IMG/VR virus record: IMGVR_UViG_3300028666_000024
Span: 64,001 to 128,000 of that record
DNA: 64,000 bases
DNA from: a virus
Direction: 5' to 3' (one strand)
The notes under the pieces are model-generated. The model did no database searches. It saw only the letters and a program-made list of their open reading frames with translations, and was not told the DNA's origin. Positions 5,924 through 31,238 of this stretch are shown in pieces (within the stretch, counting starts at the first letter, position 1; every line of letters starts with the position of its first letter). A program made the position numbers and the translations under genes.

Positions 5924-7786
5924 TTATACAAGTTCAACAATACTAACACCACTTTGTTCAATGATGGTTTTCAGGGTAATAAACTCAATAACCTTAGTTG
6001 GTTGAACATAGATATCTACCATCAACTGATTATTATTCACAACATCAGGAGTATTATTTGAGGCATCACAAACAACCTTATAACCTGTCAATCCTCCTCC
6101 AGCAGTAACATCACCAAGGAAACTTGACACCAAACTCGAAATTCTCTGTTGAGTTCTGGAAGTGTTAAGTTCAAACAAGAAATCCTGAAGCATCGGTTCA
6201 ATACTATTCTCAAGATAAATCAAAAGTCTTCGAACATTAATTCTATCAAGAGCGGTGGCCTTCAACTGAGCAGTCTTTTGACCCCACATAACAGAACCAA
6301 CTCCCGGAACAACAAGACTTGTGTTGATGTTTCTGTCATACAAATATCCAATATCTGCCTTATCAAGAGTAAACTTCTGAGCATAACTTGAAATAATACC
6401 GCGAGTAGTTCCAGCAGGAGCATCCCAAGTATTAGCAACATTATCTGTTCTTGCCATGATAGCAGCACCAAAAGCAGCCTTCGGCAACCACAACCATTTA
6501 CTATTGAAAGTATCTCTTACCTTATCAAAACCAGCATACAATGCCATATAGGAAGGATTAGTATAACCATATTGTTCATCCTGCCAAATTAATTGAGCAG
6601 TGTTGTGATTAGATTGATTTGTTCCTGTCTGTCCAGTTGCAATACAATCCATTCTCTTTGTTGCAATTCCACCAACCTGTTGTTTTACTTGAGTATTCCA
6701 ATCAGCATTGATAAGAATATTCACTCCCGGAAGTTTGGAACGACTTGCAAAAATATTCCAAGCGTTTGTAACGTCATTTCCCATACCAGTTCCGCTTGTA
6801 GACAAAGAACCACCACTAAGAGGAATCAAGTTGAATGCTCTTAGATTAGGAACAGAGTCAACAAGACCAGAGGTAGGACATGTATTTATAGCACCATTAT
6901 TCTTAATATAAATCCAATTTGAAACACCATTTATAACTGTTGTAATATTTAATTGATTTCCATTAACATCAAGTTGATCTCCAAGGGTTCCATAAAAGGT
7001 TTCAACTGGTTGTAAAAGACTTGTTAAATCTGTAGCACTGGTAGTTGCTGAAGTAGCTTGTAAACCAGAAATATTTGCTGAAATAGTTGACCAGTTCTGT
7101 GACTGTTGTTTTAGATAAACATCAATCCTCATAACCTTTGCTGCAATAGGAAGTGCTGAAGTAGCAAGAGTATATGCAGAAAGTGGAGCACCTGCTGAAA
7201 TAGTAGTATCATCATACTTATATAACCAATCAGAAGCACTTGTCGCTGTCTGAATAGAAACTGCAATATTATTTCCATCAAGTCCCGGATATAAAGCAGC
7301 AATACAAAAGTCACCCGGAGGAACTGCCGCGCTTGTCTCGATAGAAGAAATATTATCTGGAGTATCAAACTGTCCTCCTAAAATAAAAGGAGTTGATGGA
7401 ATTCCAGAAGTTGTACAAGCAGATAGTGTAGTAGCACTCAAGAAATCATATCCAGACATATTTACATATAATGCAGCATACTTGTCACTTGGATCACAGG
7501 CTCTTGCAACATAAAGATTATTTGACTCATTCAAAAACTGCAACGCTGCGTACATTCCATATCCATACTCAGGGACATCAGGATTACCAGAAGCACCACT
7601 TGTATAAACTGGATTTCCAAAAGTATTAACCAAATCTTGATCCGAAGTCACAAGAACTGGGCTATTAATCGGTCCTCGAATTGAACGAACAACTACTCCA
7701 CCAACGGATGTTCCGGCAGGTTGAAGTATATTTGATTGATCTATTTCTTGTCTCTGAACTCCGGGTGTTGACATTTTCTGTGCCAT
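5924..7786 (-). CDS. gp18: Contractile tail sheath protein gp18
   Basis: 620 residues, close to the T4 gp18 size. The N-terminus (MSTPGVQRQEIDQS, VVVRSIRGPINSPVLVTS) is the typical sheath start, in which the arm interacts with neighbouring subunits. The C-terminal third (WLPKAAFGAAIMARTDN, GIISSYAQKFT, DRINVRRLLIYLENSIEP) is the conserved sheath core that contracts around the tube. The middle is Ser/Thr/Ala-rich and variable. It is preceded by two late promoters and a good ribosome site (AAGGAGATAAATAG). Confidence 0.95.
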   Translation of the reverse strand: MAQKMSTPGVQRQEIDQSNILQPAGTSVGGVVVRSIRGPINSPVLVTSDQDLVNTFGNPVYTSGASGNPDVPEYGYGMYAALQFLNESNNLYVARACDPSDKYAALYVNMSGYDFLSATTLSACTTSGIPSTPFILGGQFDTPDNISSIETSAAVPPGDFCIAALYPGLDGNNIAVSIQTATSASDWLYKYDDTTISAGAPLSAYTLATSALPIAAKVMRIDVYLKQQSQNWSTISANISGLQATSATTSATDLTSLLQPVETFYGTLGDQLDVNGNQLNITTVINGVSNWIYIKNNGAINTCPTSGLVDSVPNLRAFNLIPLSGGSLSTSGTGMGNDVTNAWNIFASRSKLPGVNILINADWNTQVKQQVGGIATKRMDCIATGQTGTNQSNHNTAQLIWQDEQYGYTNPSYMALYAGFDKVRDTFNSKWLWLPKAAFGAAIMARTDNVANTWDAPAGTTRGIISSYAQKFTLDKADIGYLYDRNINTSLVVPGVGSVMWGQKTAQLKATALDRINVRRLLIYLENSIEPMLQDFLFELNTSRTQQRISSLVSSFLGDVTAGGGLTGYKVVCDASNNTPDVVNNNQLMVDIYVQPTKVIEFITLKTIIEQSGVSIVELV

Positions 7787-7826
7787 CTATTTATCTCCTT
7801 CAAAAATTTTCAAATCTTCCTAAAAG

Positions 7827-7834
7827 TATTTATA
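7827..7834 (-). promoter_or_regulatory. T4-type late promoter (sheath, proximal)
   Basis: TATAAATACTT on the minus strand, 41 bases before the sheath start. Confidence 0.7.
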
Positions 7835-7883
7835 ATCTTAACAATTTAAAAATTGAAATTTACAACTAAACCATTTTTCAAAC

Positions 7884-7891
7884 TATTTATA
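7884..7891 (-). promoter_or_regulatory. T4-type late promoter (sheath, distal)
   Basis: A second TATAAATA 57 bases further upstream. It lies next to the -35 box of the divergent early promoter at 7899. A doubled late promoter suits a highly expressed virion gene. Confidence 0.6.
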
Positions 7892-7898
7892 ATTCTTC

Positions 7899-7927
7899 TT
7901 GCATTCTTTCCCGGCATGATATATATT
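7899..7927 (+). promoter_or_regulatory. Early promoter, CCGGCATG-spacer class
   Basis: TTGCAT, a 17-base spacer (tctttcccggcatgata) and TATATT. The spacer core is shared with four other plus-strand promoters here. It reads into the small zinc-finger gene at 7971. Confidence 0.75.
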
Positions 7928-7970
7928 TAAAATAACAATGATAATTTAACCAACTTTTAGGAGATTCAAT

Positions 7971-8159
7971 ATGGCGGCGAAGACCTTTAAATGTGTTGGA
8001 TGTGAAAGAGAAGTTATTGTTCCTGCTGAGTTTCATACTTACGGGGATAGTGCCTGTGCTACCCGTTATTGCTCGGAAGAGTGTTTCAATGACTCTATGG
8101 CTGGAGTTCTATCTATCTCGAAGCACAAGGCCTGTGGGGAGTTCTATTTTGAAGATTAA
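7971..8159 (+). CDS. Small zinc-finger protein (62 aa)
   Basis: Two Cys pairs (FKCVGCERE and RYCSEECF) spaced like a treble-clef or zinc-ribbon, with a further His/Cys near the C-terminus (KHKACGEF). The start has a good AGGAG site, and the gene is driven by the early promoter at 7899. It is the only gene of this plus-strand island and converges on the terminase gene with a 14-base gap. It is probably an early DNA- or protein-binding factor, but the target is unknown. Confidence 0.8.
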   Translation: MAAKTFKCVGCEREVIVPAEFHTYGDSACATRYCSEECFNDSMAGVLSISKHKACGEFYFED

Positions 8160-8173
8160 AACTGGAACTCCTC

Positions 8174-9757
8174 TTAATAGTCAAAGAAAACAGCATCATT
8201 ATAATTCTCGTCTTCTTCTTTATCTTTCTTTTCAATATTTTCATCAAACACAGAATCCTCATCAAAATCATCAAGATATTCATTTGTCTTAGTATAAAAT
8301 AATCCCCAATTGAGAGAAGTAACACAATCATCAAATGCATTCCTTTTTGATCCTTTTGCTGCGTATCTTCCTATTCCAACCTCCTCATACTGTGAAAGTT
8401 CTGTAATTGTGTCTTTATCATAAATCTTTAACCATCCCTTTTCGATATATCTCTTGAGGAGTGTGTTTGCTTCTGCCTTTGTCATTGGTCCCGAACGAAC
8501 TCCCAATCCTCCCTTGTTGTATCTTTTACCATCAATACCAATAGGTTGATAGGTAATGATTCCTTCCCACTCATATTCGATCCAAAGCATTGTCAAAACT
8601 ATTCCTCCAACATCTGCGTTATTTTCAATCATTGCAGGAGCCATATTATAAAAATTTGAAACATCTATAATAACCTTTGCAAAATCATAAGGAGATATTG
8701 TATTACTTCTGTATACTGCTACCTGTTCTATATCAAGACGACTTTTAATTTTTAGAACCTGAATCACTGAATAGTTTGACTCCTGTTTTCCACCACCTGC
8801 TGCAACATCAACACCAAGAACATACTTAGCATTATCTACAGGATTCTCCCAAATTTTCATCACACCATTCCACTTATAATCAATTGGAGGCATAAACTTC
8901 ATCTTTTCTAAAATATCTTGATCAACCATCGTGTTGTTTGCTCCAACAAAACGACAATCAAACTCCTGCATGAATTGAATTTCACCATATGGAAGAGATT
9001 TTATTGTTCTCTTCTTCCAATCTTCATCCCTTCCCGGAACTTCTGTCCAAAGAATCTTGATTGGATAATAATTATTTTCTCCTCGAACAGCATTAATCCA
9101 TAGATCATAAAACATTTCTTGTCCGTTTGGAGTTGAAAGTATAATAACCTTTGATTTCTTTCCTGAAGATATTGTAGGAATCACAGCACTCATAAAACTC
9201 TTCTGCATATTCTGATCCACGAAAGCAAACTCATCAAGTAACAATGTTGAGAATGATAAACCTCTGACCGCTGTTGAGGATGTTGAAAAGGCATATAATG
9301 AACTTCCATTTTCTAAAATAATATCTTTTTTGTTCCATTCAACTATTCCTTGTTGTAACCACATGGGAAGAGCTTCATAAGCACTTTTAATTTTGTCAAG
9401 AATTTCAACAGAAATCATTTCTTTATTTGCAAGAATTGCCGCTACATGATCTTTGTTGAATAAAATAGTATGAAGTAAATTTAGAGATATCATAGCTGTC
9501 TTACCAATCTGACGTGATGCTAATATGATAACATGTTGTTTGTCCTCCGGAGGTTCTTTACAAACCTTTAGAACTTTCTTTTGATAATCTCTTAAAGGTA
9601 TTAAAATCTTTCCATAATCAATTGTAATGATATAGAAATACTTCTCAGCGAAATAACAAATATCCTCGGCACACTTAACATACTCCTCAAGCATTTCTTT
9701 TGTATAAGTTACTTCCTGACCCTTACCCCTCAACTTCTTATTACCCATGAACGCCAT
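8174..9757 (-). CDS. gp17: Terminase large subunit gp17
   Basis: 527 residues, shorter than T4 gp17. An adenine-binding N-terminal segment (RDYQKKVLK) leads to Walker A SRQIGKT at 81-87 and Walker B LLLDEFAF at 172-179, with the catalytic Glu after the Asp, then motif III ILSTPNGQ. The C-terminal RNase-H-like nuclease begins at LGVDVAAGGGKQESNYSVIQV (first acidic residue), with further acidic residues near MIENNADVGG and NAFDDCVTSL. This motor pumps DNA into the prohead through the portal. Unlike T4, it is separated from the small subunit by three genes. Confidence 0.95.
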   Translation of the reverse strand: MAFMGNKKLRGKGQEVTYTKEMLEEYVKCAEDICYFAEKYFYIITIDYGKILIPLRDYQKKVLKVCKEPPEDKQHVIILASRQIGKTAMISLNLLHTILFNKDHVAAILANKEMISVEILDKIKSAYEALPMWLQQGIVEWNKKDIILENGSSLYAFSTSSTAVRGLSFSTLLLDEFAFVDQNMQKSFMSAVIPTISSGKKSKVIILSTPNGQEMFYDLWINAVRGENNYYPIKILWTEVPGRDEDWKKRTIKSLPYGEIQFMQEFDCRFVGANNTMVDQDILEKMKFMPPIDYKWNGVMKIWENPVDNAKYVLGVDVAAGGGKQESNYSVIQVLKIKSRLDIEQVAVYRSNTISPYDFAKVIIDVSNFYNMAPAMIENNADVGGIVLTMLWIEYEWEGIITYQPIGIDGKRYNKGGLGVRSGPMTKAEANTLLKRYIEKGWLKIYDKDTITELSQYEEVGIGRYAAKGSKRNAFDDCVTSLNWGLFYTKTNEYLDDFDEDSVFDENIEKKDKEEDENYNDAVFFDY

Positions 9758-21330: not shown

Positions 21331-22944
21331 TTATTGATTCCAAACATATTTTAGACTACCAGAATCATAAATCCTATAATATCCTCGTTCTAACATAATC
21401 TCTTCTTCGGTTTTGTTTGGGTCTGCTCCCTCTGCAACTAACACAGATTTTCTAAAATTGAATCTGTTAAGTCTACTTCCTGTTCCTTCTTTAATATAAT
21501 AATAATTTTGTTTTGTTGAACCGTGAAATTTAAATCCTAAAACATCATATAAAGTCTTGTTGTTATTCATACTCCAACTTCTATCGGCATAACTTATAAT
21601 TTCTTCTGGATTATTATTCTTGATAAAATTTTTAAAAAGTTTAGAAGCAGCACCAATAACATTTGTATTTAATTTATTACAAAATCTATAAAGTTCAAAA
21701 CTCCGATCTTTTGCATCTTTTCCAAGAGATTTTCTAAAACTTCCAAATGTCATTAATGAAACCAACTCTTCGTTGTAATATAATCCTAACCTGATTTTAG
21801 AATTTACATTACCTTGCAAATGATTTTCTTCTAAAAATACTTTAGAATCTTTTGAAAAAACTTCTTTAATTTCACAATTTCTTGCAAATATTTTTTGAAA
21901 AGAATTTTTAAGAAGATTTAAAAGTCTTGATTTTACAATACTTTGTTTATAAATCCAATCATCTTCATATATGTGAATAAGATGAATACCAAGTTCTTCA
22001 GCCTCGTTTGTTTTATATGATTGAGAAAATACATCATCATTAAATTTTTCTGAATGCCATATTAAACCGTTATATTCTATTGCTAATTTTAAATCTGGAA
22101 GATAAATGTCAAATTCTTTTTTACCAGATAAAATATTCTTTGTGTTTTCTAAAATTACTCCTAAATAGTTTTGTTTTATAAATTCGTAAATTTCTTTCTC
22201 AGCACTTGAAAATTTCTTTTGAAGTGGGTTGCAGTGAATACATATTTCATTATTATTTTTCTTTCTTAGATTAAATAACTGCCAACGCATCTCAAACTCT
22301 TTTTCACACTTTAAACACCTAAATAAATACCAATCTTTTTTACAATCTATTAATTTAAGTTTTAAATTGTTTTCTATAATCTGATTTTCAACATATTTAA
22401 AACGTTTTGTATTGTAAAAATCTTTTAAACTATTTTTAATCTTATCAATATTTGTATATTCTTCATCCCCATACTTTTTAAATTTTGTTAATCTTATTTG
22501 TTTTTCATTTCTATAAAATTCATTACCATATCTTTCAAATTTTGTTGCTTTTGCAAGTTCTACACTATTTTGAATTTCTTCATCTGATTTATTTTTCCAA
22601 GTTTCTTTTAATGCTTCTTTATTTACATAATTTCTATCACCATACTTTTTTTCTAAAGTATCTTTGATTTTCTTTTTAGACTCTGGATTTTTAGCAGAAC
22701 ATGCCGGGGAACAATGTTTAGAATAACCTATAGTGAATGTTTGATATGGAGTTTCTTTATTACAAACAGGACATATACCTTCACCATCTTCTTTATAAAA
22801 TCTGTCATAATAATCTTTAGAAGTTTTACAATCAGGATGATATTTTCTAAGATGTCCGATTGCAAAAGTTTCAATAGAATATTTTGTTTGTTGATTGCAA
22901 ATTTTACAAAATATTAATTCTTTGGAGGATCTTTTATATTCCAT
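21331..22944 (-). CDS. Homing endonuclease, Vsr-like (EDxHD-type) PD-(D/E)XK (537 aa)
   Basis: Two N-terminal zinc-finger-like blocks (CKICNQQTKYS...HLRKYHPDC, CPVCNKETPYQ...HCSPAC), then basic repeats typical of DNA-binding spacers (KATKFERYGNEF, KKYGDEEYTN), a further zinc site (CLKCEKEFEM), and a nuclease core at about 245-330: SSAEKEIYEFI, KEFDIYLPDLKLAIEYNGLIWHSE, HLIHIYEDDW. This order matches the Vsr-like homing nucleases. A C-terminal domain carries SYADRSWSMNNNKTLYDVLGF. It lies just downstream of the capsid gene, a common homing target. Its promoter would place transcription start at the A of its ATG. Confidence 0.85.
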   Translation of the reverse strand: MEYKRSSKELIFCKICNQQTKYSIETFAIGHLRKYHPDCKTSKDYYDRFYKEDGEGICPVCNKETPYQTFTIGYSKHCSPACSAKNPESKKKIKDTLEKKYGDRNYVNKEALKETWKNKSDEEIQNSVELAKATKFERYGNEFYRNEKQIRLTKFKKYGDEEYTNIDKIKNSLKDFYNTKRFKYVENQIIENNLKLKLIDCKKDWYLFRCLKCEKEFEMRWQLFNLRKKNNNEICIHCNPLQKKFSSAEKEIYEFIKQNYLGVILENTKNILSGKKEFDIYLPDLKLAIEYNGLIWHSEKFNDDVFSQSYKTNEAEELGIHLIHIYEDDWIYKQSIVKSRLLNLLKNSFQKIFARNCEIKEVFSKDSKVFLEENHLQGNVNSKIRLGLYYNEELVSLMTFGSFRKSLGKDAKDRSFELYRFCNKLNTNVIGAASKLFKNFIKNNNPEEIISYADRSWSMNNNKTLYDVLGFKFHGSTKQNYYYIKEGTGSRLNRFNFRKSVLVAEGADPNKTEEEIMLERGYYRIYDSGSLKYVWNQ

Positions 22945-23047: not shown

Positions 23048-24448
23048 TTAGATACTAGACTGAGCGGTAAAGGCAAGATCAGTGGCATTTGCACCAGCAA
23101 TCAGGTTACTCATATTGAAGAACGGAATCAATCTGTAGTACCTTCCAGCACCAAGCAGGTTAGTGGTCAATGCATAACGCGAAAGAACACCAATGTTTGG
23201 AGCGTGAGTAAGAGGGTCTACGGCACGGTCAGTCAAACCCATTATGTAGGGGCTGAAGATTACACCAGCATCGTCAATTCGTGGTCCCTTAAAACCAACA
23301 AGCGCCATCTCAGAAGTACAGTACATATCATGGTAAACATCGATGTAGGAATTAACCTTACCGATTGAAGTCATGACCTGAGTAGGATTAACATTTGCAT
23401 TCAAAGTAACGAACGGATGTCCAGCACCCTGCAACGCTGACGCAATACCTGAACTCACTACGGCAAAGTTACCAGCACCACGCCGAGTTTTCTTCGCAAT
23501 CATATTCGCCTGATAGACGATAGACGCGATGATGTTCATATACTTCTCACCAGACCACCGACCATCAATACCAGTTCCGTTTCCGGTCAGGTCGATAGCG
23601 TTAATAACAGCACCACCGTTTGTAGTATCAACAGCAGCATTCTTAACAGCAGTGATAATCTCTCTATCCATTTCAGCAATAATTTCGTACTGAAGGAAGG
23701 TAATCATCTCTTTCTCAATAGACAAACCCTGCATAGCCTGAATGTCCTGAGCAGCTTCCAAACTATATGACGCAGCAAGCTTACGTTCCTGAGCGTAAAT
23801 TGACTTCTGGTCGATATGAATCTTCAACTGAGGCCAAGCACCAAAACCAGTGGGAGGAGTAATAGTTCCAGAGGTAGAAGTCAACGGCCACACACCACCA
23901 CTCAAAGTCCAACCTTCAGCAGCACTTGTTGCAGCACCAGTTGCGGAAGTATCACCGAAACCAGTATTAGCAGAAGTGTTAACCCCACCACGCAACGCAG
24001 CGGAAGTCCCAACGCTTGAACCAGTGTAACCAGCGTATTGCTGAACGGCTTCCCATGCAGCTTCGTTATTTGAACCGTCATTATACATTACTCTCAAAGC
24101 GTAAGCAAGTCCGTAAGGAGTGCTCATAGCCTGAGTTCCAACAATCTTATTTGCAAACAAATCCGGGAAAGTTCTACGCATCAAAGCCAAAGAAATGGGT
24201 TTGAAGATGTATGAACCACTATCACCGGCTCCATCAGTATATCCACCGGCAGTTCCTGTATTAATGCTACCAAAAGCTGCTTCTCTTAAAAGTTGTGAAC
24301 CATCCAACCGACCGAGGTTATCCTGATTCTCAAGCAACTTCGCCATATTTCTCTTAATATTGTAATCACCAATATTTTTAATAGAGAGTTTACCAACATC
24401 CTTACTCTCCCATTTTTCAATCAACTGTGATTCGTTTATCATTTGCAT
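23048..24448 (-). CDS. gp23: Major capsid protein gp23
   Basis: 466 residues. The N-terminal propeptide (1-56) ends in L54-R55-E56 before A57, an (L/I)-x-E|A site expected for gp21-type cleavage. The mature arm contains GSINTGTAGGYTDGAGDSG. The HK97-fold core includes MRRTFPDLFANKIVGTQAMS, FLQYEIIAEMDREIITAVK, and a C-terminal domain (FVTLNANVNPTQVMTSIGKVNSYIDVY, FKGPRIDDAGVIFSPYI, RYALTTNLLGAGRYYRLIPF) characteristic of gp23. AAGGAG site nine bases before the ATG. Strong terminator after it, as expected for the most abundant virion protein. Confidence 0.97.
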   Translation of the reverse strand: MQMINESQLIEKWESKDVGKLSIKNIGDYNIKRNMAKLLENQDNLGRLDGSQLLREAAFGSINTGTAGGYTDGAGDSGSYIFKPISLALMRRTFPDLFANKIVGTQAMSTPYGLAYALRVMYNDGSNNEAAWEAVQQYAGYTGSSVGTSAALRGGVNTSANTGFGDTSATGAATSAAEGWTLSGGVWPLTSTSGTITPPTGFGAWPQLKIHIDQKSIYAQERKLAASYSLEAAQDIQAMQGLSIEKEMITFLQYEIIAEMDREIITAVKNAAVDTTNGGAVINAIDLTGNGTGIDGRWSGEKYMNIIASIVYQANMIAKKTRRGAGNFAVVSSGIASALQGAGHPFVTLNANVNPTQVMTSIGKVNSYIDVYHDMYCTSEMALVGFKGPRIDDAGVIFSPYIMGLTDRAVDPLTHAPNIGVLSRYALTTNLLGAGRYYRLIPFFNMSNLIAGANATDLAFTAQSSI

Positions 24449-24535: not shown

Positions 24536-25327
24536 TTAGTCAAGAAAACGGCTTGCCATACTATAGAAACTATTCTCTTCATTCTCTTTGATTACTTTCT
24601 TTTCAGTCTTAATATTATCATCTTCTGAAATTACAGTATCAATAGTTTTCTTATCACCTTGAGTTTTTCTGGTTTCCTTTGATTCTTTGATCAACGACAC
24701 AAAGTTATCAATCTGTCCCTTTACTTCCTCAAACTTCTTATCCTTAAACATGGTAACAACTCTGTTTTTCTGAGTTTCAGTCAATCCATCAACCTTTTCA
24801 GAAATCAACAAGAAAGTTGCAACTTTATCCTTACCCTCTTCAGCTTCCATCTTACTAAGAATTGCTTCAGAAAGTTGTTTTTCAAGATTACCAATTTTAT
24901 TTGTAGACTCTTTCAAAGCCTTAGAACCATCACTATCAAGAGTTACATAATGCTTTGCAAAAACTTGTCGAATTTCTTCAACAAGAGGACTCAAAATTCT
25001 ATCAGTCGCTGCTGTAGTAATTGCATCATCGGAAATTTGTTCAGTGATAATATGATCGAAGAACCCATCCAACCGAGCAACGATCTTACCTTCAAGTTGA
25101 TCCATCTTCCCATCATATGACTCAATCAACGAAGCTTGAATTTTTGCAGTCTCTTCCGCAATTCTTTTCTCACAATACTTCTTAGAAAGTGCATCATACT
25201 CTTTCTTGATTTCCTCTTCGCGTAGAGCAACTGAATCTGTTACTTTCTTAGTGATAGCGGCTTCAAAAACTTTTTGATCCTCTTCAGAAAGAACTTCTTT
25301 AATTTTATCTGCAATCTTTTTATCCAT
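24536..25327 (-). CDS. gp22: Prohead core scaffolding protein gp22
   Basis: 263 residues, almost entirely helical and charged, as in T4 gp22, and in the expected place between protease and capsid genes. It begins MDKKIADKIKEVLSEEDQKVFEAAI and has long coiled coil (REEEIKKEYDALSKKYCEKRIAEETAKI). The C-terminus ends SMASRFLD, one of the A-x-R-F-L motifs shared with other head proteins. It assembles the inner scaffold and would be digested by gp21. Confidence 0.9.
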   Translation of the reverse strand: MDKKIADKIKEVLSEEDQKVFEAAITKKVTDSVALREEEIKKEYDALSKKYCEKRIAEETAKIQASLIESYDGKMDQLEGKIVARLDGFFDHIITEQISDDAITTAATDRILSPLVEEIRQVFAKHYVTLDSDGSKALKESTNKIGNLEKQLSEAILSKMEAEEGKDKVATFLLISEKVDGLTETQKNRVVTMFKDKKFEEVKGQIDNFVSLIKESKETRKTQGDKKTIDTVISEDDNIKTEKKVIKENEENSFYSMASRFLD

Positions 25328-25384: not shown

Positions 25385-26731
25385 CTATATCCTATCAAAC
25401 AATGATATACCTGATTGTTTTTTTCCAAAACTCTTGTTAAGTTGTTTTGCAATTTCTTCGGCAGTTCCTTTTATTTTAAGATGTTCAATATAAAATCTTT
25501 CATCATTTTCTACTTCAAACCAAACCTTATCAGTTCTATTACCAATCCGAACCAAAGCATACGGACCTTGATATTTATCAAAAGGTCTAATCTCTTTAAA
25601 ACGTAACTTCCCATTAGTAAGATTTGAAATCTCTTCACAAACACTTTTCAACTTTTGTGCAGCTTCATAATATTCTCCACCTTCTTCAATATCATTCGGC
25701 CCCATCTCACCAGATTCATAAAGATTATTAATATTTCTATTTAAAAATTCTTCCGAAGATTCTTTTATACCTTCAAAATTTTCTCCATACAAATCTTTTA
25801 TATTATTATTTAAAAAATCTTTAAAAGACATATTTGAAATAGATTCATCTACCTTTTTATAATCTTCAGGATTTATAGAACCCTTAACGGTTGGATTTGC
25901 TTCCCATGCTTCTTCAGGTGTATCATAACCTAAACGCTTTGCAATTCCATAAGTTTCACAATAACTTTCAAACTCTTCAAAATTTTCATACTGATCTTGA
26001 AGTTTACCTTGCCAATCTTCAGAAATATTTTGAACTGATTCATTCTGAGTGTGATATTCATCAGAAATATTTCCAGCAGCAATCCAAAGAATACGTATGT
26101 AATTTTCTTCTTCATCACTTAATTGTTCTTCATCCCAAGATCCATACCCCTTCAATTCTTTCTTAATATCTTCGGGAGAAATTTTTTCAAGTTGATTTTT
26201 AATCTCTGGATTTTTTAACAATTCTTCAACATCCGAATCACATTCACCTTGATGTGAACACGACTCTGCCTGCTCTAATGTCATTTCTATTTCAAATCTA
26301 TTAAAATGAGCAACCTGCATTCCTTGAGGATCATCAGACTTTTCATCATCATCTCTGTCTGATTGTGGATTATCAAAATTCTCTTCTTCCCGGTCAACAG
26401 CATGTTCAAAATTATCGTCGTATTCATCTTCCATCAAAAATCTTCCGGCAATTTTATATCTCTCTTCCATATCAATTGTTCCCTGTTCTTCTCTATTATC
26501 TTCAAAAGAAATATCTTGTGGATCTACCGCTATTCCGAACATATCTCTTAAATCTTCTGCAAGACAATCTTTAAAAGCATCTTTGTCATTCTTATAAAGA
26601 TATTCATAAGAATCAGCAACTTCTTCACCAATTCTTTTAAACTCAATTCCACCGTTTTTTTCAACAAGTCTAATTTGTTTCAGTCTTGAATCTATGGTAA
26701 ACTTATTTCCATCACAATAAACGTTAATCAT
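25385..26731 (-). CDS. Acidic multidomain late protein in the head operon (448 aa)
   Basis: Lies between protease gp21 and scaffold gp22, where T4 has no gene. Residues 92-101 read YKIAGRFLME, the R-F-L-x-E motif. Residues about 146-225 form a compact domain (FEIEMTLEQAESCSHQGECD ... KGYGSWDEEQL ... RILWIAAGNI) of a type found as small stand-alone phage proteins. A third segment at about 291 (MSFKDFLNNNIKDL) looks like a second, internal targeting-type peptide. It is strongly acidic, as core proteins are. Its ATG overlaps the protease stop by one base. Probably a core or packaged fusion protein. Confidence 0.75.
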   Translation of the reverse strand: MINVYCDGNKFTIDSRLKQIRLVEKNGGIEFKRIGEEVADSYEYLYKNDKDAFKDCLAEDLRDMFGIAVDPQDISFEDNREEQGTIDMEERYKIAGRFLMEDEYDDNFEHAVDREEENFDNPQSDRDDDEKSDDPQGMQVAHFNRFEIEMTLEQAESCSHQGECDSDVEELLKNPEIKNQLEKISPEDIKKELKGYGSWDEEQLSDEEENYIRILWIAAGNISDEYHTQNESVQNISEDWQGKLQDQYENFEEFESYCETYGIAKRLGYDTPEEAWEANPTVKGSINPEDYKKVDESISNMSFKDFLNNNIKDLYGENFEGIKESSEEFLNRNINNLYESGEMGPNDIEEGGEYYEAAQKLKSVCEEISNLTNGKLRFKEIRPFDKYQGPYALVRIGNRTDKVWFEVENDERFYIEHLKIKGTAEEIAKQLNKSFGKKQSGISLFDRI

Positions 26732-27417
26732 TATAGTATACTCCCTGAATTAATTTGAATGTCTTCTATAAATTTTACAAAATATTGCTTTGCAAGTTCT
26801 GAAGAGTATTTCTTATCCATACTTTGTTTGAGATTTGAAACTGCACGTTCAATAAAAATATCACCGTTAAGATACCATTGTTTTGATTCCATGATTGACT
26901 CACAGAAGGAATTTGTATTTGATGGGTTCATAACTACATCAACTGCTGCAATCATCAATCCTCTTTTTACTCTTCCATCATCTCCTAACTCGCCAACACT
27001 TCTAAAACTAACCCCAACAGGACAAGATTCTTTTATAAGACCTCGAACAACTTTTGCAAGAGGAAAACACTCCTCATCTAAAAGTCTAGCAACTCCATAT
27101 ACATTATTATCTTTTTCATCCTTAAACCCCAAACTTTCAATACATATCACAGCTCTCTCAGGATTTAGGTTAGGATCTTCGGGATGCGATAATTCTCCGT
27201 AACTTCTTCGTCTTTGAATATATTCTTTATCATAAATACCAATCGATTCATCTAATACATCTCTACCATAAATTCTATTGTTTTTATTCTTCTGTTCTGC
27301 TGTGATAAAACTTCCTTTAAGTTTATATCTTTTCTCTGGTTTTCCGTCAATACTTATATCTTCTGTAAAAACAGAAACATTATTTTCATCTGTAATTTCT
27401 CTTAGTAATATTCCCAT
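26731..27417 (-). CDS. gp21: Prohead maturation protease gp21
   Basis: 228 residues. The family blocks are KLKGSFITAEQKNKNNRIYGRDVL, YGELSHPEDPNLNPERA (the His motif) and CPVGVSFRSVGEL (the nucleophile Ser motif, in place of the common G-x-S-S-R-G), followed by VDVVMNPSN. It is a serine protease of the T4 gp21 type that digests the scaffold and trims capsid and internal proteins at (L/I)-x-E sites. Many such sites occur in neighbouring products. ATGA-type coupling with the 448-aa gene. Confidence 0.92.
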   Translation of the reverse strand: MGILLREITDENNVSVFTEDISIDGKPEKRYKLKGSFITAEQKNKNNRIYGRDVLDESIGIYDKEYIQRRRSYGELSHPEDPNLNPERAVICIESLGFKDEKDNNVYGVARLLDEECFPLAKVVRGLIKESCPVGVSFRSVGELGDDGRVKRGLMIAAVDVVMNPSNTNSFCESIMESKQWYLNGDIFIERAVSNLKQSMDKKYSSELAKQYFVKFIEDIQINSGSIL

Positions 27418-27815: not shown

Positions 27816-28178
27816 TTAAAATCTATCACTTTCAACATCATTTTCCGAAGGAATATCTGCATAGTTATCATTCTCTACATCATCTTTTTCTTTACTGAAA
27901 TACCAAGCACGAGTACCATTATCACCAGCACTCATATAATTATTATCATATCCCAAAGAATTTACATATTGTTTTCCTTCATCCATAAACCTTACCGTCT
28001 TAACAACATCACCATAACTTTTATACAAATCATCATCGGTAACTATATAAGTGTCATCGTTTATACCTTCTGCTTTATTTTCTGTTGTGCAATGAATCAC
28101 CAAAACACTATCTGGCATATCATCTTCAAACAAATTAGAGAGTAGATTGTTTACTGCTTCATATCTTTTATTAATCAT
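27816..28178 (-). CDS. Hypothetical head-operon protein (120 aa)
   Basis: Begins MINKRYEAVNNLLSNLFEDDM, a degenerate relative of the R-F-L-x-E motif. The rest is acidic with a beta-rich centre (VLVIHCTTENKAEG, YIVTDDDLYKSYGDVVKTV) and an acidic tail. It overlaps the 111-aa gene by eight bases. It occupies the place of T4 gp68 but has no clear similarity to it. Confidence 0.7.
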   Translation of the reverse strand: MINKRYEAVNNLLSNLFEDDMPDSVLVIHCTTENKAEGINDDTYIVTDDDLYKSYGDVVKTVRFMDEGKQYVNSLGYDNNYMSAGDNGTRAWYFSKEKDDVENDNYADIPSENDVESDRF

Positions 28179-28506
28179 TTGAATCCTCTTGTTCTATATT
28201 CTTTTCAAGTTCTACAAATTTTAAAGCTTCATGTTGCAAAACATTTTTAATCTTATTTACAATAATTTCAAAGACTTCTTTTGAATCTTGATCTTCTAAA
28301 CTATCTTTTGAAATTTCTAAAAGAGTCTGGTCTTCCCAAATATTAATAGAACCATCTTTTAAAAGATAAATTCTAAAATCTTTTTTAAGTTCTGATTCAT
28401 CATTTTCAATACCTTCTGTAGTTTGGTCTGGTTTATATTCTGAATCCGCCGGAGCAATTTCCTCAATTAGAAATCTATTTGCAACTTGATATATTTTATT
28501 TTTCAT
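28171..28506 (-). CDS. Head-operon protein with RFLxE motif (111 aa)
   Basis: N-terminus MKNKIYQVANRFLIEEIAP carries the motif V-A-N-R-F-L-I-E at residues 8-15, similar to the IA-x-x-FLIE segment I recall in T4 gp67. The remainder is acidic and helical. First gene after the portal, with its own late promoter 18 bases upstream. Probably a core protein processed by gp21. Confidence 0.7.
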   Translation of the reverse strand: MKNKIYQVANRFLIEEIAPADSEYKPDQTTEGIENDESELKKDFRIYLLKDGSINIWEDQTLLEISKDSLEDQDSKEVFEIIVNKIKNVLQHEALKFVELEKNIEQEDSND

Positions 28507-28542: not shown

Positions 28543-30330
28543 TTAGAATCTCTTCTCCATGTATTTTCTTGCTTCTGTCAAAATAACAGTGTCATAGATT
28601 TTTGATTCTGAAGCACTCATTGCAGTTTGCATACCAACACCTTCAGGAGCACCAGTTCCCTCAGCACCTACTTCAGTCGTTGCAGGAACTTCAGGAGTAA
28701 CTTCACCGGGAATAGTTCCACCTCCCATAGCACCTCCCTGACCTTCAATACCAGCAGGAGGATTAACATTCTTTTTCTTTCCTACACCTGCCTTTGCCTT
28801 CGCTGCTTCTATTAAATCTGCATTTTTCTGATATTCTTCATCACTTATAAAAAGCATCCGTTTCATCACATACTCTTCGGCAAACATTCCTTCAAAATTA
28901 TTACTTGGTTTAGCAATGAAGGCATCTACTGAAGTTAATAAATTAATTTTTGATTCTGTCATTTCCATTTCTCGATATTCAGAGAAAAGATTTGACTTTG
29001 TAAACTCTATATCATACAATCCTAAATCAACATATTGTTCATCAAAACCTTTTATACGCAATTGAGAAATAAAAGCATCTAAAATCAAATATTTAAAACG
29101 TCTTTGTAATCTTTCAACGAACTTCATAAGTTTTATCTCTTCTCTTGTAACTTCAGAAGAGTTTTTACCTGTAGAATATCCAGCGGTTTTAGAATCTTCC
29201 CATCTTGCTTTAGGAATTTTCAAAGCTTTGTTAAGTTTTCCAAGAAAAAGTTTTATATCATCAATTTCATTCAAAAATCCTGTGCTCTCACCAAGAGTCG
29301 TAACTTCGGTTCCAGAATTATCTTCATTCTTCAAAAACCAATAATCTTCCGTTAAAGTCTGAATATTTGCGGCGGAATCAATATCTCCAGTTTGAGGATT
29401 ATAAATTACCTTCTTTCGAAACTTTTGAATTAAACCTTTCAAATATTCTTCAGATTTTCCCTTTGGCATCCTTCTTGTTGCAACATTCCAAAGTCTTCTC
29501 AGAGGAGCTTTGTTAATACGATAGATAACTAAAGAATCTTCAAGATTTTTCAATTGATTGTATGTTCTGATAGCAGGTTCAAGATAACCACGAACATCAA
29601 CAACATTTTCCCCTGATTGACCATAATTCACATAAGATACCTGATCTCTATCGAAAGGCATTACTGTTTCTTCTTTAGTACCCTTTACCTCAACTGAATT
29701 CTTATCTACAACACCTTCTTTACGAGTTTGAAGAAAAGCAACTATCTTGTTGTTTTCCATAACAGGAACCATAGAATGTGCTGGAAGAATCTTAATACCA
29801 ATGATAGAATTTGCTTTATCATTCAAAATCAATTCTACATAAAGTTCTGCCTCAACCAACCACTTCTTAAAAAAATCCCACCCACGCTCATTAAAAGCAA
29901 AAACCTCAGTCAGAAGATATTTCCACTCTTCCCGGATTTGTCTTTCAATGTTGCTCGGAAGTTCTTCTTTGATTGTGAGAGAAACAATATCTCCATTAGG
30001 ATTATCAACAATAGCTTCATCACAAAGCATATCAAGAGCATCAGAAATCTCAGGATATAAACTCATCTCCCTATACTTCATAATCCTTTGAACCTTATTT
30101 GCAAAGTAATTTTCAAAAGAAACACCTACATAAGAAGCAGCTTGATTAGAATTGAAAAGGTTTTCATAAGAAAGAAAATTTGATTTATCAAACTCTTCCT
30201 GTGACATACCCTGAGAATTCTTCATCTGCTGATATTCTAATGCATCCTCTTTTTCACGACCAGTCTGAAAGAACCTTGAAACGCGATTAAATGGAAAAAT
30301 GCGTGAGAAAATTGAATTACTTGTTGCCAT
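28543..30330 (-). CDS. gp20: Portal vertex protein gp20
   Basis: 595 residues. N-terminus SIFSRIFPFNRVSRF, then NKVQRIMKYREMSLYPEISDALDMLCDEAIV, a hallmark of gp20-type portals. Also EEWKYLLTEVFAFNERGWDFFKKWLVEAELYVELIL, IYRINKAPLRRLWNVATRRMPK, and KIPKARWEDSKTAGYSTGKNSSEVTREEIKLMKFVERLQRRF. The last 100 residues are Gly/Pro-rich and end TVILTEARKYMEKRF. The dodecameric portal nucleates the head and holds the packaging motor. Confidence 0.95.
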   Translation of the reverse strand: MATSNSIFSRIFPFNRVSRFFQTGREKEDALEYQQMKNSQGMSQEEFDKSNFLSYENLFNSNQAASYVGVSFENYFANKVQRIMKYREMSLYPEISDALDMLCDEAIVDNPNGDIVSLTIKEELPSNIERQIREEWKYLLTEVFAFNERGWDFFKKWLVEAELYVELILNDKANSIIGIKILPAHSMVPVMENNKIVAFLQTRKEGVVDKNSVEVKGTKEETVMPFDRDQVSYVNYGQSGENVVDVRGYLEPAIRTYNQLKNLEDSLVIYRINKAPLRRLWNVATRRMPKGKSEEYLKGLIQKFRKKVIYNPQTGDIDSAANIQTLTEDYWFLKNEDNSGTEVTTLGESTGFLNEIDDIKLFLGKLNKALKIPKARWEDSKTAGYSTGKNSSEVTREEIKLMKFVERLQRRFKYLILDAFISQLRIKGFDEQYVDLGLYDIEFTKSNLFSEYREMEMTESKINLLTSVDAFIAKPSNNFEGMFAEEYVMKRMLFISDEEYQKNADLIEAAKAKAGVGKKKNVNPPAGIEGQGGAMGGGTIPGEVTPEVPATTEVGAEGTGAPEGVGMQTAMSASESKIYDTVILTEARKYMEKRF

Positions 30331-30333
30331 AAA

Positions 30334-30765
30334 TTATTTTCTTTCCTTGAGATATTCTGTAAAGTATTTATCCAAATAGATATCTACATCAACATCTTCC
30401 TTAACTTCTTTCTTCTTACATTTGAATCTTTTAAAAGTTCCAAATTTTGGTTTGTAAATATATGAATTACTATCTGATTTTCCATCTTTATATCCACCGG
30501 CTGATGTTGTAGTAATCGAACCAACATCTTCCTGCACCTGAACATCATCTGCAATATTTAATTTCTTTTTAACTGCTTCTAAAACCTTTGCATTAAACTT
30601 TCCAAGCAATTCATTTTTAGAATCTTCATTTTGTTCCTGTGTATATCTCTTGTAATCAGGATCTGAGGCTTTGAGAAGATCCGTTGTTTGATTCCAAATC
30701 TGTTCGACTGCTTCAGGACTCTTCTTTGAAAGGTCTGCTAACGATTGAATTTGTGATGTTGCCAT
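30334..30765 (-). CDS. Small protein carrying a copy of the capsid protein N-arm (143 aa)
   Basis: ATG at 30765 has an AGGAGTAA site; an earlier ATG at 30783 is less likely. Residues 82-101 read GSITTTSAGGYKDGKSDSNS and, extended to 81-106, match residues 59-84 of the major capsid protein at 17 of 26 positions. Just before this comes V-Q-E-D, close to the capsid cleavage site L-R-E-A. The first 75 residues are helical and differ from the capsid propeptide; the C-terminus is Lys/Asp-rich (FKRFKCKKKEVKED). It lies directly upstream of the portal. It may be a capsid-binding or minor head protein. Confidence 0.75.
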   Translation of the reverse strand: MATSQIQSLADLSKKSPEAVEQIWNQTTDLLKASDPDYKRYTQEQNEDSKNELLGKFNAKVLEAVKKKLNIADDVQVQEDVGSITTTSAGGYKDGKSDSNSYIYKPKFGTFKRFKCKKKEVKEDVDVDIYLDKYFTEYLKERK

Positions 30766-30797
30766 ATTATTTACTCCTATCAATTTTAACTTGTTCT

Positions 30798-31238
30798 TTA
30801 TCCATTTAAAATCTCCTTCTTTTCAACTTCTTTTTCAACTAAATATTCTAAATAATTTTCAAAAGAGATTCCAACATTTTCCAACTTCATTTTCATATCT
30901 CTTTCAATCTTTTGTAACTCAGCTCTCTGCATAACAGATCCACGAATTATCAACTTTGAATACATTGATCCTTCACCACCCATTGATAAAGTATATAGAA
31001 AACTTTGAAATATTAAAATTTTACTTCCTAAAAGTCTTCTCAACTTAAAAATAACTCTATCAAGTAAAGTCAATGCCATTCTCTCCTCATCTGTAGAAGG
31101 CTCCTTAATAACCTTACCAGCAGTATCAATTAAACCTAACTTGTGTGCTGGAGTTCTTACAAAAGGAGTTAATAACTTCTTCAGAAAAACAAAAGTTATA
31201 ATAGCATCAATATTGTTTCTTTGCTCTGAATTATTCAC
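30798..31238 (-). CDS. Hypothetical late protein (146 aa)
   Basis: N-terminal helix (IDAIITFVFLKKLLTPFVRTPAHKLGLID) could lie on a membrane. It is followed by basic helices (DRVIFKLRRLLGSKILIFQSFLYTLSMGG) and a coiled coil (RAELQKIERDMKMKLENVG). It ends ENYLEYLVEKEVEKKEILNG. Small proteins near the portal of this sort are frequent in T4-like phages, but I cannot name it. Confidence 0.7.
   Translation of the reverse strand: MNNSEQRNNIDAIITFVFLKKLLTPFVRTPAHKLGLIDTAGKVIKEPSTDEERMALTLLDRVIFKLRRLLGSKILIFQSFLYTLSMGGEGSMYSKLIIRGSVMQRAELQKIERDMKMKLENVGISFENYLEYLVEKEVEKKEILNG

Follow-up and report, generated by a model that had tools for sequence, protein, structure and literature searches.

The virus encodes, directly upstream of its portal gene, a small protein that carries an imitation of the N-fist of the major capsid protein gp23, and across the lineage this imitation co-varies with the gp23 of the same genome. 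Of the mimicry and the co-variation, taken by themselves, we are highly confident. The window analysed was a stretch of 64,000 nucleotides (bases 64001-128000 in a virus record of 169,231 bp) in which the head genes are of the T4 type (portal, protease, scaffold and gp23), with only ~30% identity to any annotated phage. The small protein (P0001; 143 aa; 30334..30765, minus strand; family found in ~47 contigs) is translated from an ORF that was judged to be real, with its ATG at 30763-30765 and its own AGGAG ribosome-binding site at 30774..30778 (minus strand), and 3 nt separate its stop from the ATG of the gene for the portal protein gp20 (28543..30330; Portal_T4 3e-96; phrog_213). Downstream on the same, minus strand lie the prohead protease gp21 (26731..27417; Peptidase_S77 8e-18; phrog_207), the scaffold gp22 (24536..25327; T4_CASP 1.5e-14; phrog_237) and gp23 itself (23048..24448; PF07068 1e-74; aligned to T4 gp23). 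The conserved upstream neighbour of the small gene (30798..31238, minus strand) matched phrog_18642/phrog_2086, and ORFs resembling it were read by eye in L115, L157, L209, L214, L273 and L296. Directly downstream of gp23 sits a homing endonuclease gene (21331-22944; phrog_3339), and the tail sheath and terminase genes (5924-9757) are far from the portal gene.

Residues 81-106 of the small protein (VGSITTTSAGGYKDGKSDSNSYIYKP; 30448..30525, minus strand) are identical to residues 59-84 of gp23 (FGSINTGTAGGYTDGAGDSGSYIFKP) at 17 of 26 positions, which confirms the match claimed by an earlier, sequence-only reading, and BLASTP of the small protein against gp23 gave 41 bits (E = 2e-9). The similarity far exceeded that of shuffles of the small protein (z = 16.6), the small protein ranked first for it among the 274 ORFs of the window, and in the whole record the segment was matched by gp23 and the small ORF only. 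Preceding the mimic is V77-Q78-E79-D80, with L54-R55-E56-A57 as the gp23 counterpart, so the segment does lie right after V-Q-E-D and near the gp23 L-R-E-A, as had been noted. The rest of the protein had also been called not capsid-like, and it indeed matched no capsid family; PF07068 (Gp23/Gp24 family) gave no match to the small protein, of which only the N-fist segment resembles gp23. Searches of Pfam, PHROGs, NCBIfam and PDB sequences with the small protein returned no convincing match, and no fold match was found at E <= 0.001 in PDB or BFVD.

The lineage gp23 profile was aligned to T4 gp23 (6uzc), with a register that is loose within the fist. The T4 cleavage site E65|A66 aligned with E56|A57 and the conserved Pro P92 with P84, and gp23 residues 57-84 (24197..24280, minus strand), aligned with T4 residues 66-92, correspond to the N-fist (defined in PMC7136217). 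By this alignment the copy coincides almost exactly with the N-fist, which makes up the first ~26 residues of mature gp23 (T4 66-91). The mimicry of a gp23 arm proposed earlier stands, but not its description as the arm that is cleaved off, as the copied part is the new N-terminus after cleavage. In T4 each N-fist touches four subunits, of which two belong to the neighbouring capsomer, and it becomes ordered on the outer surface as the shell expands (PMC9958956); in the five gp23 subunits facing the portal it is disordered because a capsomer partner is missing (PMC7136217). In the seven records searched, which may be incomplete, a single full gp23 was found and no gp24 paralogue of full length, so the pentons are probably made of gp23, and with one of them replaced by the portal the N-fist sites there would stand empty. 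The argument from vacant sites is not compelling when taken alone, since cyanomyoviruses also lack gp24 (PMC2984593) and showed no such small protein within the loci examined. Two more small ORFs carry a gp23 segment just past the N-fist, L304:1477-1719 (minus strand), from the genome of the window and outside the window, and L318:1273-1659, from the genome of L238. PF07068 matched them with E-values of 3.7e-7 (L304) and 5e-12 (L318). Their segment covers what we take to be the Gol region of T4 gp23, which activates the Lit protease, and these ORFs are possibly decoys or remnants.

AlphaFold2 predicted for the small protein a folded helical region (residues 1-70), a disordered region (71-126) and a C-terminal helix. 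The N-terminal domain (30556..30765, minus strand; pLDDT 83-94) is modelled as four helices and is conserved in 16 relatives. It is followed by the candidate prohead-protease site V77-Q78-E79-D80 (30526..30537, minus strand), at which the cut would fall after E79. The gp21 consensus is cleavage after Glu in (I/L)-x-E, and V-Q-E departs from this textbook form; in most relatives Glu or Asp stands directly before the mimic and P3 is variable. Behind the mimic lie a basic stretch (residues 107-122, KFGTFKRFKCKKKEVK; 30400..30447, minus strand), with a Lys run in many relatives, and the C-terminal helix (residues 127-142; 30340..30387, minus strand), predicted with low to moderate confidence. An AlphaFold model of gp23 (mean pLDDT 35) was left out of the analysis. 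No N-terminal targeting peptide of the T4 internal-protein type (~10 residues, ending in a gp21 site) was seen by eye and in the model, the N-termini being folded or coiled-coil-like, and no motif common to the C-termini of the small protein and the scaffold was seen by eye. An A-(N/S/G)-R-F-L-type motif does recur in the head region, at the scaffold C-terminus (MASRFLD), at the N-terminus of ORF 28171-28506 (VANRFLIEE) and in ORF 25385-26731 (IAGRFLMED), and the scaffolds of many relatives end with a similar A-N-(R/K)-(Y/F)-L motif; it may be a core-targeting signal. ORF 25385-26731 (448 aa; phrog_14450 match) sits between protease and scaffold and holds two similar stretches, DFLNNNIKDLYGENF and EFLNRNINNLYESGE.

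The lineage was opened by a lineage-specific portal pattern, after which lineage portal and gp23 alignments yielded ~90 loci. Neither single-protein scans with P0001 or the portal nor a degenerate pattern of the shared motif at DNA level found anything, and a distant T4-like portal alignment recovered distant relatives only, most of them with an ORF of tail-tube size before the portal gene. In T4-type and cyanophage records, unlike in the window, the gene before the portal gene is that of the tail tube. An iterated profile of the small protein detected 54 relatives (44 distinct proteins, ~47 viral contigs). The sequence-only reading had called for a search of relatives for the two-gene arrangement, and the small gene lay upstream of the portal gene, at a distance of 0-1175 nt, in 52 of the 53 lineage loci having both, the exception (L220) being a rearranged contig. 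Likely members missed by the profile were recognized by eye (L273:5256-5576, L281:259-978, L296:5642-6049). In the other loci without a profile match the upstream sequence was absent, or, as in L223, the locus lay outside the lineage; L223 is clearly without the small gene and has a portal only 31% identical. The portal genes L225:9965-13045 and L286:4241-7141 contain an intein with a LAGLIDADG-like domain (Intein_splicing 7e-14 and 8e-12, Pfam). A single capsid match in the genome collection, a lineage capsid gene on a Cyclobacteriaceae MAG contig (L302), hints at Bacteroidota hosts.

Members follow a common plan: a variable N-terminal domain, one or two acidic residues and a segment of 20-45 residues, in most cases opening with a T-T type motif, after which come, as a rule, a Lys-rich stretch and then a short C-terminal tail. 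The features that define the family, position upstream of the portal gene, an acidic site and a segment co-varying with the own gp23 N-fist, were all found. The N-terminal domains are of several types (helical FAKKTGKS-type, MPYPNEH-type, coiled-coil-like and others). The helical type was also seen in small Vibrio phage proteins, with a weaker match in phage Motura, where it is fused to another protein. Roseobacter and Synechococcus phages have the MPYPNEH domain inside capsid proteins. Such occurrences make the N-terminal domains look like borrowed modules. Since the N-terminal domain is swapped between relatives, portal binding by this domain would not be a constant feature of the family.

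Members had been picked by the family profile and not by their likeness to gp23, and the mimic tracked the capsid protein of its own genome. Scores against the own gp23 exceeded those against swapped gp23 (33 non-redundant pairs; p 5e-5), and the same was true when the comparison was limited to the final 95 residues of the small protein and the final 46 of the arm (p 2e-5). The own-pair excess persisted where portal identity was below 60% (15 genomes; z 6.2) and below 50% (9 genomes; p 4e-5), and with the two best pairs removed p was still 2e-5 to 4e-5; cross scores tended upward with portal identity. Among ~70 ORFs, the small protein scored highest for the own arm at 15 of 33 loci, against an expectation of 0.6. 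Examples are the mimics of L283 (FATGTGTISVAPENGGVPSGGAGQGVYADKMG; own gp23 FGTGTGTISVADAPAGNVPTGGAGNGVFAPISM), L278 (NPGGDGAHQVRM; own gp23 NPGGDGAFQPIAM), L218 (SNTLTTANI; own gp23 SNTLGTATL) and L217 (SNTMSTANI; own gp23 SNTISTSTL). For about a third of the pairs the own-arm similarity was no higher than that of shuffles (e.g., L255, L287, L231, L244, L236, L294, L286). The same scan of 75 outgroup T4-like loci gave only noise, with no comparable protein.

The likeness itself could be compositional and partly due to chance, the segments being linker-like (rich in Thr, Ser, Gly and Asp) and predicted to be disordered, as the pairs that lack significant likeness might suggest, but the own versus swapped tests, the shuffles and the outgroup control led us to reject chance composition, and exact motifs are shared (e.g., GTGTISVA in L283, NPGGDGA in L278); we give this explanation very little credence. 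Alternatively, the segment could be a functionless relic of a duplication, or of repeated gene conversion between the two genes, which lie within ~6 kb of each other and are alike in one segment only. At 215 aligned identical residues, however, codons agreed at 99, with 101.2 expected from codon usage, and in the most similar pair (L283) at only 3 of 23. As codons at shared residues agree at chance level, recent duplication or gene conversion is not the cause and was rejected, which contradicts the earlier idea of a duplicated capsid arm as far as a recent event is meant, and the similarity has therefore been kept at the protein level. Selection on the protein is the simplest cause of the likeness. 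The gene is moreover kept in essentially all members of the lineage, and the relic explanation, which the codon test has largely refuted, is very improbable.

We propose that the small protein is a head protein, probably processed, that provides N-fists at positions lacking a gp23 neighbour, of which the portal vertex is the most likely; the chances of this statement, taken whole, we put a little short of even. Since the segment and the gp23 of the same phage have evolved together, the protein probably occupies a capsid-tip site that is otherwise empty, and the co-variation fits the earlier suggestion that the protein takes the place of a capsid arm. The protein would enter the prohead via its N-terminal domain and/or its C-terminal helix and would be cut by the prohead protease after Glu79, as gp23 presumably is after Glu56, gaining an N-terminus like that of gp23*. 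The new N-terminus could then dock in any N-fist site of gp23 in the shell that lacks its gp23 neighbour, the obvious vacant place being the portal vertex, where the portal stands instead of a pentamer, and the Lys-rich part and the C-terminal helix might hold the portal, the scaffold or DNA. The departure of V-Q-E from the gp21 consensus, the roughly one third of pairs whose own-arm similarity does not exceed that of shuffles, the cyanomyoviruses and the swapping of the N-terminal domain count against this proposal. Still more tentatively, it may be a free-standing N-fist donor, a new class of capsid protein that fills the arm sites left empty by the portal and, by providing the arms of the lost pentamer on a separate, co-evolving protein, eases the mismatch between 12-fold and 5-fold symmetry.

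The main rival to a donor of N-fists is an internal core protein, comparable to the T4 internal proteins or to DarA/Hdf of phage P1, whose N-fist-like piece would anchor it to gp23 across the inner shell while the Lys-rich stretch binds packaged DNA. Most members are Lys-rich after the mimic, with runs of up to 12 Lys/Arg, and the acidic site is protease-like. According to the available part of the P1 report (PMC12810830), DarA and Hdf are minor head proteins that bind the inner face of the capsid with a positive surface toward the DNA, and DarA is cut near the cut site of the capsid protein; they differ from the small protein in being large and folded, and that part reports no capsid-arm mimic. 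Against a core protein, gp23 already fills every regular N-fist site, so that a mimic would have to compete, T4 N-fists end up on the outer surface after expansion (PMC9958956), and several members have few Lys; we regard it as unlikely. Less likely again is an assembly regulator that acts before expansion, replacing the gp23 arm on scaffold, protease or gp23, slowing growth or the protease until the head is complete and then being degraded. The acidic site before the mimic, as in gp23, the place of the gene in the head operon and the coiled-coil-like or helical N-terminal domains would suit such a regulator, but gp23 residues 1-56, which are active before cleavage, are not copied, and the part that is copied becomes ordered in T4 only at expansion. 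Of the original interpretation, the mimicry and the portal-gene arrangement stand, together with the coincidence with the N-fist. Competition for the protease alone would not require that a stretch of ~26 residues past the cut follow gp23.

Within the literature searched, of which coverage was incomplete, no phage protein was described as a mimic of the capsid N-fist. The mimic resembles the T4 gp23 N-fist (66-91) in being the same segment, of the own gp23, placed directly after an acidic cleavage-type site, and differs in standing on a separate small protein without a capsid domain. Like the vertex protein gp24, the small protein would be a second protein taking gp23-type vertex positions, but gp24 is a full gp23 paralogue, N-fists being described for gp23 only (PMC9958956), whereas the small protein shares no more than the N-fist. 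Small proteins of the head operon or the core are also known in T4, where the prohead protease processes gp67/gp68 and IPI-III, but these have no sequence match to the small protein. Membership in gp67/gp68 is contradicted by the lack of a family match and by gene position, their genes lying after the portal gene (between 20 and 21; T4-type order in SP18) and the small gene before it, and IPII/IPIII have an N-terminal targeting peptide rather than a capsid mimic. SaPI1 CpmB is also a small protein that competes in capsid assembly, although, in the available part of its description (PMC5644958), it is satellite-encoded and competes with the scaffold without imitating a capsid arm.

It has long been asked how a 5-fold capsid vertex accommodates a 12-fold portal, and the N-fists that face the T4 portal are partnerless. 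A lineage-wide N-fist-bearing protein that evolves with its own capsid would answer the question for these phages in a concrete and testable way, and it provides a sequence signature by which capsid-binding proteins can be sought in uncultured phages.
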